Assembly: GCA_014084085.1 (NCBI GenBank)
Contig: NPFB01000015.1
Span: 202,534-266,533, forward strand
Reading direction: 5' to 3'
Origin: Hondaea fermentalgiana
Taxonomy: Eukaryota > Sar > Bigyra > Thraustochytrida > Thraustochytriidae
DNA length: 64,000 nt
How positions within the stretch are numbered: the first letter of the stretch is position 1; each line of letters starts with the position of its first letter. The notes below the pieces were generated by a model, which saw only the letters and a list, made by a program, of their open reading frames with translations, was not told the origin of the DNA and searched no databases. This document shows positions 24,132 through 35,272 of this stretch, piece after piece. Made by a program: the position numbers and the translations under genes.

Positions 24132-25598
24132 ATGGCGGAAGAGCAAGAGACGCCCAAGGGCCTGGCCACCGAGGTGGGCCAGGAGATCGACCTCACCGGC
24201 GATGGCGGTATCGTGAAAAAGGTGCTCGCTCTGGGCGAAGAGAACGGCGCCACGCCGCAGAGCGGAGACCAGGTGTACGCGCACTACACCGGCACTCTCG
24301 AGGATGGGACCAAGTTCGACTCGAGCCGCGATCGCGGCAAGGAGTTCGACTTTACGATCGGCCAGGGTCAGGTGATCAAGGGTTGGGACGTTGGTTTTGC
24401 CTCAATGCGCAAGGGCGAGCGCGCCGAGCTCATCATCAAGTCTGACTATGGCTACGGTGACAGTGGCTCCCCGCCCAAGATTCCTGGCGGCGCCACGCTC
24501 AAATTCGACGTGGAGCTTCTTCGTTTCGGACCCAAGCCCAAGGAGAAGTGGGAGATGAGCACGCCGGAAAAGATCGAGGAGGCGAAAAAGTACAAGGCGC
24601 AGGGTCTCGAGGCCTTCCAGGCCAAGGACTTCAGCACTGCTCAGTCCGAGTGGGATACTGCTCTCGACTACGTTGAGTTCCTCGACGGCGAGGGCGAGCA
24701 GGTCATGGAGGGCAACGAGCTCAAGCTCTCCCTGCAGTTGAATCTTGCACAGGTCGGACTCCTGACCAAGGACTACCAGAGCGTCTTCAAGTACACAAAC
24801 GCGGTGCTCAAAGATCACCCCGACAATGTCAAGGCCCTCTTCCGTCGCGGTACGGCGCATTCTGCCTTGGCCGACTTTCCTGCGGCCAAGGCGGACCTCC
24901 TTCGCGCGCGCGACCTTGACAAGGAGAATAAGGCCGTGCTGCGCGAGCTGGGGCTTCTCAAGAAGCGCATCCAAGATGCCAAGGACAAGGAGAAGTCTCT
25001 TTTCGGCAATGCCTTTTCAAAAATTAGTGGCGGAATTTACACGGAGAAGAAGACGGTCAAGCCCTCGGTTGCGCACGACAAGCACAAAGATTGCCCGCAG
25101 GTGTACTTTGACGTCAAGGTTGGCGAGGATGCCGAGCCAGAGCGCATTGAGATGGAGCTCTTCAAGGATACTGTGCCCAAGACGGCCGAGAACTTTCGCG
25201 CTCTGTGCACCGGCGAAAAGGGTTTTGGATACAAGGGATGCACCTTTCACCGTGTCATCAAGGACTTTATGATCCAGGGTGGCGACTTTACGAACCACAA
25301 CGGCACAGGTGGCAAGTCAATTTACGGCGAAAAGTTTGAGGATGAGGACTTTGGTTCAAAGCATTCTGAGGCCGGTCTTCTCTCGATGGCTAATGCTGGG
25401 CCGAACACCAACGGCTCGCAGTTCTTTATCATCACTGCCGAAGGCGGCACCCCTCACCTTGACGGCAAGCATGTCGTCTTTGGCCGCGTCACCAAGGGCA
25501 TGGAGGTTGTCCGCAAGATCGAGAACTCGGATACCGACAGTTCGGACAAGCCCGATTCTGCGGTCACTATCGTGGACTGCGGTGAGATGACCGCCTAA
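24132..25598 (+). CDS. Dual-family immunophilin: FKBP-TPR-cyclophilin fusion
   Basis: 488 residues with three modules. An FKBP-type prolyl isomerase lies at ~25-135 ([38 protein letters not shown]); the FK506-pocket Phe-Asp and Trp are present. TPR repeats follow at ~150-290 ([36 protein letters not shown]). A cyclophilin lies at ~315-488 ([15 protein letters not shown] with the catalytic Arg, [15 protein letters not shown]). The position of the cyclosporin-contacting Trp of human CypA is His here ([14 protein letters not shown]), as in Cyp40, so weak cyclosporin binding is predicted. FKBP-TPR-cyclophilin proteins (FCBP) are known from Toxoplasma, and reversed fusions from Flavobacterium; they are rare. 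The TPR block suggests an Hsp90-type chaperone partner. Likely cytosolic, with no targeting signal. Confidence 0.96.
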
Positions 25599-30560: not shown

Positions 30561-32006
30561 TTAAAAAGGAGGCTGGGGCATGAAGGCCGCTGCCGTGTCC
30601 TTTCCATGGACCCAGTAGTTGACCATGACGGAGGATCCCATGTTCTGCACATGATGGAACCAGCCCGCGGGAAGGTAGAGAAGCTCACCAGGCTTGATGT
30701 CGACGATCATTTTGTTGTAATGCGAAGAGGACACTCCAGGGGCATTCGGGTCCGCAGGGTCGCCGTAGCAAAGACCCTTGTTCCGGCCAACGCAGCGCGG
30801 CTTGAGCAACTGAAAGTCCGAGGGCGGCGCAATGGTGAAGCGCTTGGTGCCGGCAATCATCGCGACAATGTTGTCACAGCAGTCCGAGTGCGAGGCCGTA
30901 CCAGACACACCGTTACCCATCCAGAGGCTACCGCGCTGCATCCAGCGGCGGGGGAAGAGGGGCGGAGGGCGAATGCCAAGCTTTTGCAGCGCATGCGGCT
31001 TGATCTTCATGTTACGTGGGAGGTTGCGGAGGCCCTTCTTCTTGACAAGCGTCGCGTTGGCGCGCAAGGCCGCGAGACCTGGGCCAAGATCGACCTCGCC
31101 ATCAAAGCGAGCGTTGGGCCGGTACTGCGCAAAGGTCTCAGTGGTCACATCATGGCCATCGAAGGGAAACATCTCGTTGAGTTCCTCAAAAGTGAAGGCG
31201 CGGCCCGTGTAACCAGACTTGCGCATGTTGTCCATGCGAAAGAGCACAGGCTGACCGAACTTGCGAAAGCGCGCGCGAAAGTTCTGTTCATTGAGCTGGA
31301 TGCTACGCTTGAGCACGGGAACGAAGCGTTTGATTGGGTTTGCGCGGTACAGACGAGCGTACTCTTGCACGCCCCACCACTCGTTCTGCTTGGGCGCGAG
31401 GTCGGGGACAACGACGTCAGCGCTTGCAGCGTACTCGGCGTAGTTCTCAAAGATGTCCGAGTCCTTCATGCTCGTGAGATCGTGGAAAGGCTCGAGATAC
31501 AGGTCAGCGACCTCGGCAGCTGCCGACTCGTCGGCGCGCTCGTCCTCCTCCCGTTCAGCCTCCTCCTCAGCGGTTTCCTCGGCAAGGTTGGGGTTGACAT
31601 CACCGGGAGAGGGATCTCCATTCTCAACGCGACGGCTAAAGTGCTCGTTGCCGTTCTCGCTGGTAATCTCGAAGCCGTCGTTGCCAACGGCCGGAAGAGT
31701 GGTCCCGCCACTGCCAGTCATCGTCGGAGCTGCGCGGCTGTTGCCACTTCCGGCGACAACAACGTCCTGCTTGCCATGCGCTGCGTAGCCGAACATGAAC
31801 GATGCCGAGACGAGCATGAGAACCACCACGTACATGAACCACCGCGACTGCTTGACGGCATCTACCTGGTGCATGACGCGCTCCATGACCGGCGCGTTCC
31901 GCGCGCGGCCGCTCAAAAGGCCTGTCTGGCCATCCTCGGTGGGCGAGGGGGCCCTCGAGTACGGCAGACTGCCGCTGCTGCTGCTGTGCTTGCGCGCCTT
32001 CATCAT
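30561..32006 (-). CDS. Membrane-anchored JmjC/cupin-8 Fe(II)/2OG oxygenase
   Basis: 481 residues. A short Ser-rich N-terminal tail precedes one transmembrane helix at ~56-78 (WFMYVVVLMLVSASFMFGYAA), giving a type II topology with the catalytic part in the lumen or outside. After an acidic linker the C-terminal ~280 residues form a JmjC/cupin-8 domain with the iron facial triad visible: H373-S-D375 (GTASHSDCCDN) and H451 (PAGWFHHV). The family uses Fe(II), O2 and 2-oxoglutarate to hydroxylate proteins or RNA; membrane-anchored or luminal members are a minority among mostly nuclear and cytosolic ones. The substrate cannot be read from sequence. It is divergent from the prolyl 4-hydroxylase gene, another membrane-anchored 2OG oxygenase, across a 1.6-kb shared upstream region. 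Two Met codons in tandem mark the start (32006 and 32003). Confidence 0.9.
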   Translation of the reverse strand: MMKARKHSSSSGSLPYSRAPSPTEDGQTGLLSGRARNAPVMERVMHQVDAVKQSRWFMYVVVLMLVSASFMFGYAAHGKQDVVVAGSGNSRAAPTMTGSGGTTLPAVGNDGFEITSENGNEHFSRRVENGDPSPGDVNPNLAEETAEEEAEREEDERADESAAAEVADLYLEPFHDLTSMKDSDIFENYAEYAASADVVVPDLAPKQNEWWGVQEYARLYRANPIKRFVPVLKRSIQLNEQNFRARFRKFGQPVLFRMDNMRKSGYTGRAFTFEELNEMFPFDGHDVTTETFAQYRPNARFDGEVDLGPGLAALRANATLVKKKGLRNLPRNMKIKPHALQKLGIRPPPLFPRRWMQRGSLWMGNGVSGTASHSDCCDNIVAMIAGTKRFTIAPPSDFQLLKPRCVGRNKGLCYGDPADPNAPGVSSSHYNKMIVDIKPGELLYLPAGWFHHVQNMGSSVMVNYWVHGKDTAAAFMPQPPF

Positions 32007-33622: not shown

Positions 33623-35272
33623 ATGCAGACCCTTGCCGGAGCGGCGGTGCTATCTTGTGAGCAGGAGAAAGCCAAGCGCACATGTGACGATGAAGAAGAC
33701 GAGGCGCTGAAAGAACTGCAAGAGATGAGCAAGGCGTGGCTTACAAGCACACTCACACGGCTAGCGACCGTCGCCGCGTCAGTTCTCATCCTCGTCGTAG
33801 CGATCGCTATCGGCATGAGCGAGGAGATCCAAAATGATCTGAAAAATATCGCACGTGAAGTGCCGTTGCCTCGTACTTTGGCAAGCTACGACCAGCACCA
33901 CGCAGAGCAAGACGATCAAGTAAAGTTCCCGGTAGACTTTACTGTGCATTTTAATGGCGATGGCCTCGGCGACGGCATGTCTGCGTCCTCGCGAGACTGG
34001 ACGGGCATCGATCCGCTCATCCGCGCCGCCTGCGATGAAATGGAGGAAGTCCTTGAGTTCGCGTCCTATGACAATGAAACAATGGCTCGCATCTGCGAGC
34101 CGACTCGAGGCGCTCGTCTCTTTACACCCGGGGGCAAGCGAGTCCGCTCTTTTGCAGATGTTCCGGCCAACGGAACGCGCATCTATCTCGTGCCCCAAGG
34201 TCTGCAGTTTGTCTTTCCTCTTGGCAAAGTTGGCACTGAGATTGTAGCCACCAATGTGGTCTCACCGCTTGCAGACAAAGTCGTCAAGCTGCGGCAATTG
34301 ACCGAGTCTCCGCGGGTGTTCAGTTTGGAAAACTTTATCTCCGACGAGGAGATTGACGCGATTTTAAAGCACAATGCTGATCTCGTCAAACCTAGCGAGG
34401 TTGGGTTCTCTGGCTGGAGAGACTCTACACGGACAAGTAGCACGGCCTGGGATATGCACTCGTCGGCCTCACGCGCCGTGCGAAGACGTAGCTTTGACTT
34501 GCTCGGCATGGACTTCGACAATGACATGGCCGATGCCCTCCAGGTACTCCGGTACAATCTCAGCGAGTGGTACAAGCCTCATCTGGACTCCTTTGACAAA
34601 AAGGCGTACGATGGAACCGTCCCCAAGGTCGAAAACGGGACAAACCGATTTGCTACAATCTTTCTTTACCTTTCTGACGTCGAAGAAGGCGGGCATACGG
34701 TTTTTCCTCTTTCGACGACGCATGAGGGCTACAATGGCGAGAAAATTGTACATGACGGAACCGTGCGGTCACCGGGATACATTGCCGATAAAGACGCGCG
34801 CTGGGCGTGCAACACTTCCTCGACTGCATTGCGGTCCGGTACTCGCCGTGGCTCCGCGCTTCTCTTTTACAGTCAGACTGCGGATGGCGAGATTGATCCT
34901 TACAGCTTGCACGGCGGCTGTCCTGTTGTCAAGGGCATCAAGTACTCTGCCAACGTCTGGGTCTGGAATCGACCAAAGCCGTCAAAGTCTGACGCCAAGG
35001 ACGCTGGGGCAAGGCCTGCGCCCGATCTTAACTCGATTCAAATGCATTTCCACAACCGTCGCGCAGGAAAGGTCAACTTGTTCTGGGACGATGGGACGGA
35101 AGACATGATTTTCCAGGCTGAAATCCTTCCCGGGGAGATGCAGAGCATGACGACGTACCATGGTCACAGCTTTGTGGTGCGAGACGCGGATTCCAAGGAG
35201 ACTTTGCACGCTTTTACAGCAAATGACAAGCTTCACAAGGGGAAGCAGCACGTGGAGGCCATCGAGGCGTGA
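33623..35272 (+). CDS. Membrane prolyl 4-hydroxylase with C-terminal pVHL-beta-like domain
   Basis: 549 residues. One transmembrane helix at ~41-67 follows a short charged cytosolic tail (type II). A prolyl 4-hydroxylase catalytic domain lies at ~230-455: H320-L-D322 (YKPHLDSFD), distal H430 (YSLHGGCP) and K440 ten residues later, matching the HxD...Hx10K iron and 2-oxoglutarate ligands of collagen-type P4Hs. Residues ~474-535 are not part of P4H and resemble the beta domain of pVHL: MHFHNRRAGKVNLFWDDG, then LPGEMQSMTTYHGHSFVVRDAD (pVHL has a CNRSP...VWLNFDG...SYRGHLWLFRDA pattern). The Trp and His of the pVHL hydroxyproline pocket are kept; its Tyr, Ser and second Trp positions are Phe, Thr and Phe. 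If the similarity is real, this enzyme carries its own hydroxyproline reader. Likely ER/Golgi luminal, acting on secreted or wall proteins. Confidence 0.92.
   Translation: MQTLAGAAVLSCEQEKAKRTCDDEEDEALKELQEMSKAWLTSTLTRLATVAASVLILVVAIAIGMSEEIQNDLKNIAREVPLPRTLASYDQHHAEQDDQVKFPVDFTVHFNGDGLGDGMSASSRDWTGIDPLIRAACDEMEEVLEFASYDNETMARICEPTRGARLFTPGGKRVRSFADVPANGTRIYLVPQGLQFVFPLGKVGTEIVATNVVSPLADKVVKLRQLTESPRVFSLENFISDEEIDAILKHNADLVKPSEVGFSGWRDSTRTSSTAWDMHSSASRAVRRRSFDLLGMDFDNDMADALQVLRYNLSEWYKPHLDSFDKKAYDGTVPKVENGTNRFATIFLYLSDVEEGGHTVFPLSTTHEGYNGEKIVHDGTVRSPGYIADKDARWACNTSSTALRSGTRRGSALLFYSQTADGEIDPYSLHGGCPVVKGIKYSANVWVWNRPKPSKSDAKDAGARPAPDLNSIQMHFHNRRAGKVNLFWDDGTEDMIFQAEILPGEMQSMTTYHGHSFVVRDADSKETLHAFTANDKLHKGKQHVEAIEA

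Follow-up and report, generated by a model that had tools for sequence, protein, structure and literature searches.

A prolyl 4-hydroxylase joined to a VHL beta domain in Hondaea fermentalgiana, a putative hydroxyproline-docking enzyme

The gene at positions 33623..35272 (forward strand) of the window, by which we mean the whole 64,000-nucleotide stretch of Hondaea fermentalgiana DNA analyzed here, encodes a 549-residue protein that joins a prolyl 4-hydroxylase (P4H) to a VHL beta domain. We propose, with about as much doubt as confidence, that it is a membrane-anchored, probably ER-luminal P4H equipped with its own hydroxyproline-docking domain, an enzyme that would dock its own product. The catalytic domain would hydroxylate proline-rich secreted chains (proline-rich wall or matrix proteins are possible substrates), and the VHL-beta tail would use a pocket consisting of W488, T511, H515 and F517 to bind 4-hydroxyproline, whether freshly formed or previously formed on the chain in question. 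A chain docked in this way would stay near the active site, where its repeated prolines could be hydroxylated in turn.

The reading frame called for this gene is intron-free and lies within an open frame of 560 codons without stops. From the N- to the C-terminus, and all on the forward strand, it encodes a hydrophobic membrane anchor (residues 47-65, 33761..33817), a conserved middle domain (104-208, 33932..34246), the catalytic 2OG/Fe(II) P4H domain (225-451, 34295..34975), a linker (452-470, 34976..35032) and the VHL beta domain (471-549, 35033..35269). The middle domain is recognized by its conservation and by pLDDT values of 94-98 in the blocks covering residues 101-210 of the structure model. 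It holds a GARLFxxGGKRVxSFxD stretch, matches PF25510 in 2 of 83 relatives at E <= 0.01 and is, we presume from a weakly tested likeness, possibly doublecortin- or ubiquitin-like. By sequence identity, for instance to the relative P0002 (84% in the catalytic domain, 65% in the tail and 31% at the N-terminus), the tail is more conserved than the N-terminus and less so than the catalytic domain.

The Pfam family 2OG-FeII_Oxy_3 (PF13640) matches residues 306-448 with E 6.1e-11 (43.6 bits against a cut-off of 27). The catalytic ligands named in the initial annotation are all present, namely the iron ligands H320 and D322, an HxD pair (34580..34588), and H430 (34910..34912), and the lysine K440 (34940..34942), and each is invariant in 83 of 83 aligned sequences, a set that includes the Hondaea protein itself. 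The role of K440 in binding 2-oxoglutarate is one that we assume from knowledge of the family. When the full-length model was compared with the PDB, the matches listed were P4H, PHD and other 2OG-oxygenase chains, and the tail was therefore folded alone for its own fold search. Among the matches listed, the structurally closest solved catalytic domain is that of a P4H crystallized with (Ser-Pro)5. Judged from the model, the Hondaea protein is probably a peptidyl-proline hydroxylase, with P4H as its nearest fold. A whole-protein Pfam scan at a maximum E of 10 gives PF13640 and PF01847 as its sole entries, with no P4Ha_N or other peptide-substrate-binding domain; most weak matches are dropped by the HMMER filters in such a scan.

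PF01847, the VHL beta family, matches residues 472-530 in the whole-protein scan with 22.2 bits (cut-off 21, E 1.4e-4) and the isolated tail more strongly (E 6.1e-6, 26.6 bits, same cut-off). Both Pfam domains thus lie on one intron-free 549-residue chain, as the proposal of a fusion required. The predicted structure of the tail has seven strands and takes the pVHL beta-sandwich fold; pVHL accounts for 50 of the 50 matches listed in the fold search. A single-sequence phmmer search of the PDB with the tail gave three chance matches and no VHL chain, and only 9 of the 83 aligned sequences reach E <= 0.01 with the Pfam VHL model; the VHL link thus needs profiles or structure, and with these the assignment of the tail as a VHL-beta domain is clear. 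The phmmer result is also what would be expected from an artefact, either chance similarity or a mis-joined reading frame, which we regard as having a negligible chance of being right: it is contradicted by the single uninterrupted frame, by the fold matches and by transcript-derived homologues that carry the tail (MMETSP entries P0003, P0012 and P0013).

An NCBIfam scan gave no match. A profile search for stand-alone tail proteins of 54-173 residues yielded 379 candidates, 0 of them at E <= 0.01. In a viral structure library, the best weak matches are two pithovirus proteins (E 1.1e-4 and 2.6e-4, 12-13% identity), which we take as general beta-sandwich likeness. The chain stops at residue 549, two residues past the last beta strand, and no further Pfam domain is listed. 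The VHL alpha domain, the elongin C-binding part, is absent, and an elongin or E3 ligase role is therefore not expected. A VHL_C profile search of the Hondaea genome gave no match, though no control gave a match either.

In passages of PMC9528729, the hydroxyproline site of pVHL consists of Trp88, Tyr98, His110, Ser111, His115 and Trp117; the hydroxyproline hydroxyl bonds to Ser111 and His115, and Tyr98 binds the carbonyl. Two profile alignments place the Hondaea residues at the pVHL number plus 400, without gaps across the pocket. The initial annotation had assigned counterparts to five of these residues. Four of the assignments stand: Trp88 corresponds to W488 (35084..35086; W in 70 of 83 and aromatic in 82), Ser111 to T511 (35153..35155; T in 59 and S in 23, thus Ser/Thr in 82/83), His115 to H515 (35165..35167; H in 82/83) and Trp117 to F517 (35171..35173; F in 52 and W in 30, thus Phe/Trp in 82/83). 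The fifth, Tyr98 with Phe, does not, as F497 sits one place off in both gap-free alignments and the aligned residue is Q498 (35114..35116). At the five positions there are thus two identities, two conservative replacements and a change of Tyr98 to Gln.

The conservative quartet at 488, 511, 515 and 517 is found together in 82 of 83 sequences, the sole exception being P0090, and exact W-S-H-W in eight, among them proteins from Phytophthora, Achlya, Aphanomyces and Saprolegnia. In conservation, the five pocket columns rank 1, 2, 3, 6 and 10 among the 81 columns of the tail (mean rank 4.4), and none of 200,000 random draws of five columns equals them. Several details count against docking: the Tyr98 position is Gln in 33 and Met in 22 of the 83 (55 together; Trp in 12, Tyr in 3), P0090 has kept the length of the tail and lost all four pocket residues, and in the second VHL-beta copy of P0125 an Asp replaces the His.

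A bacterial control bears directly on what this conservation means. VHL-beta domains were found in 6 of 398 genomes from one bacterial phylum, three bacterial genomes searched earlier having yielded none. The seven distinct bacterial domains all keep W88, S/T111, H115 and W/F117 at exact pVHL spacing, with Tyr at the Tyr98 position in 3/7. In Pfam scans, the seven proteins are free of P4H domains; ricin-lectin repeats occur in one and MliC in another. Several of the bacterial proteins (L090-L097) start like signal peptides, and a bacterial VHL-beta protein described in PMC9002001, Litorilituus EMK97_00595, is predicted to be secreted. Since the quartet is kept in all seven without a P4H, it marks the VHL-beta family, and it may go back to an ancestral ligand site or answer a structural requirement. 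The pocket argument for hydroxyproline reading is for this reason weaker than it appears, and the conserved pocket is not taken here to prove that hydroxyproline is bound.

The same control favors a different account, which we consider fairly unlikely: the tail would be a true VHL-beta domain whose pocket is a fold signature or a site for some other ligand (a glycan, another peptide or a partner subunit), and would aid folding, partner binding or localization of the enzyme with no reading of hydroxyproline. That Tyr98 is mostly not kept, in P4H tails and bacterial domains alike, would fit such a role. Against it, across a whole clade VHL-beta is attached to an enzyme that makes hydroxyproline, the bacterial domains may themselves bind hydroxyproline or a hydroxyproline-like ligand, and we know of no ligand of the VHL-beta pocket other than 4-hydroxyproline. 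For product docking we count that the domain sits on the very enzyme class that makes trans-4-hydroxyproline, that the nearest solved catalytic domain carries a proline-containing peptide, and that the one other tail-bearing gene found in the genome is again a P4H. Against docking we count that no collagen-type substrate was found in the Hondaea genome.

The second gene is a paralogue (L003 1168-2850, G000:C10:56192-57874), 62% identical to the P4H in the window over the matched part, and its product has the same sequence as a Hondaea fermentalgiana protein that bears the label Prolyl 4-hydroxylase subunit alpha-1. In the same genome the Pfam VHL model, which is insensitive and misses the paralogue, matches only the locus described here. 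Two other genes in the window may be mentioned: a 481-residue Cupin_8/JmjC protein at 30564-32006 (reverse strand), a second gene of 2OG-oxygenase type that precedes the P4H gene by about 1.6 kb, and a 488-residue reading frame at 24132-25598 (forward strand) that combines FKBP and cyclophilin, a dual-family prolyl isomerase.

Residues 47-65 have a mean hydropathy of 2.67 over 19 residues, the best later stretch reaching 1.12, and the model has a helix at residues 24-64. The stretch is flanked by basic residues toward the N-terminus and acidic residues after it, a distribution that suggests a type II anchor with the bulk of the chain in the lumen. Of the 120 proteins listed, 13 end in KDEL, RDEL, VDEL or KEDL, with KDEL-type ends in oomycete relatives; P0124 ends in EDEL. 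Together, the anchor and these ends favor the ER lumen and disfavor ubiquitin ligase work, in line with the anchored, luminal arrangement originally suggested. They would also fit a resident retention factor, in which the tail reads hydroxyproline for retention or quality control, keeping hydroxylated chains in the ER until folding or glycosylation is complete, with no effect on the rate of catalysis. Ordinary resident enzymes are likewise retained by KDEL and anchors, and we think this role improbable.

The linker contains prolines in the Hondaea protein, is weakly conserved with many gaps at 462-468 of the 83-sequence alignment, and falls to pLDDT 74 in block 461-470 of the model. A hydroxylated proline of the linker itself (RPKP / RPAPD) could be imagined to occupy the pocket and regulate activity as an oxygen- or self-sensing switch. 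Like the Hondaea protein, roughly half of the relatives have prolines where the catalytic domain leads into the tail (P451 in 47/83, P453 in 46/83); the other half, including oomycetes with NRRRYGLD, lack them and still keep the pocket, and such a switch seems very improbable to us.

A tail profile, built from pieces of 26 of the eventual positives, finds VHL-beta in 108 of 140 P4H-type proteins (i-E < 1e-3), many of them from stramenopiles. The carriers include oomycetes (Phytophthora, Achlya, Aphanomyces, Saprolegnia, Lagenidium), Ectocarpus, Chrysoparadoxa, Phaeothamnion, Pelagophyceae, Aureococcus and Chrysophaeum, and the chlorarachniophytes Amorphochlora and Partenskyella. The survey of stramenopile P4Hs proposed in the initial annotation thus reveals a widespread tail, and of that annotation as a whole the fusion, the fold, four of five pocket positions, the anchor with its probable luminal side and the stramenopile spread have held up; Phe at the Tyr98 position has not, and an open pocket, hydroxyproline binding and a part in retention or processivity are still proposals. 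The other 32 proteins comprise 18 among the first 120, of which at least 8 have <75 residues after the catalytic motif, and 14 from a second search (nine of 283-336 residues, four with the animal-type PF08336 domain, and P0140). P0140 is a 619-residue P4H that also carries PF03452 and PF13704, which we take to be glycosyltransferase-type labels, and is perhaps a hydroxylase-glycosyltransferase fusion. Three sequences labelled Batrachochytrium salamandrivorans and Durusdinium (P0028, P0032 and P0004) resemble labyrinthulomycete enzymes and may reflect contamination or mislabelling.

The arrangement also varies. P0125 and P0126 have a tandem VHL-beta pair at the N-terminus and P0120 a pair at the C-terminus, as expected of a binding module; the N-terminal VHL-beta-like domains of P0125 and P0126 escape Pfam's VHL model. 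When 49 of the 140 catalytic domains were placed in a midpoint-rooted tree, a branch with support 100/93 held all VHL-beta-bearing P4Hs to one side, and seven sequences without the domain lay apart; P0090, which has no tail-profile match, fell on the bearing side, and forms with the domain at the N-terminus branched outside those with it at the C-terminus. There may have been one origin of the fusion with later rearrangement. Independent repeated fusion is not claimed, as the bearers are grouped by a single well-supported branch. Tentatively, and with somewhat more doubt than belief, we suggest that stramenopiles and at least some Rhizaria share an ancient single-chain writer-reader, a luminal P4H that reads its own hydroxyproline mark through VHL-beta, with VHL-beta as an extracytoplasmic bacterial and protist module before its E3 use in animals for sensing oxygen.

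Hydroxyproline recognition by pVHL is regarded as belonging to the pathway by which animals sense oxygen. A VHL-beta domain on a hydroxylase in another eukaryotic supergroup provides a natural comparison for the origin of that recognition, and raises the question of whether the pocket is older than HIF. If product docking is correct, the protein would combine the writing and the reading of protein hydroxylation in one enzyme, in the manner of chromatin enzymes that recognize the mark they themselves set, and would be relevant to the modification of long proline-rich wall and matrix proteins. In the open-access literature searched we recognized no description of a P4H-VHL fusion. PMC9618697 follows VHL through metazoan phyla, one choanoflagellate and the ascomycetes, and PMC13223302 concerns an engineered system. 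Precomputed Pfam labels place both domains on the relatives P0035 and P0069, so the pairing was already latent in databases.

Compared with the beta domain of animal pVHL, the Hondaea tail comes without an alpha domain or elongin-binding segment, has Gln in place of Tyr98, and is joined to a hydroxylase and probably luminal. The bacterial VHL-beta proteins share the W/[ST]/H/[WF] quartet with it in all seven found but, unlike the Hondaea protein, have no P4H domain in the seven scanned. In the Chlamydomonas P4H (3gze, 2jig), the solved chains of 224-233 residues consist of the catalytic domain only, with no VHL-beta tail. A plant pathogen (Pythium) reportedly has a dual-function Skp1 prolyl 4-hydroxylase/GlcNAc-transferase, the subject of a work cited in PMC8724618, in which a P4H is fused to the next actor on hydroxyproline; unlike in Hondaea, the second domain is a glycosyltransferase and the substrate nucleocytoplasmic. 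The alpha subunit of animal collagen P4H has the module PF08336 (P0136-P0139, three of them also with PF23558), absent from the Hondaea protein, but it is likewise a P4H of the secretory pathway with an extra substrate-binding module, as the VHL-beta tail would be in our reading.
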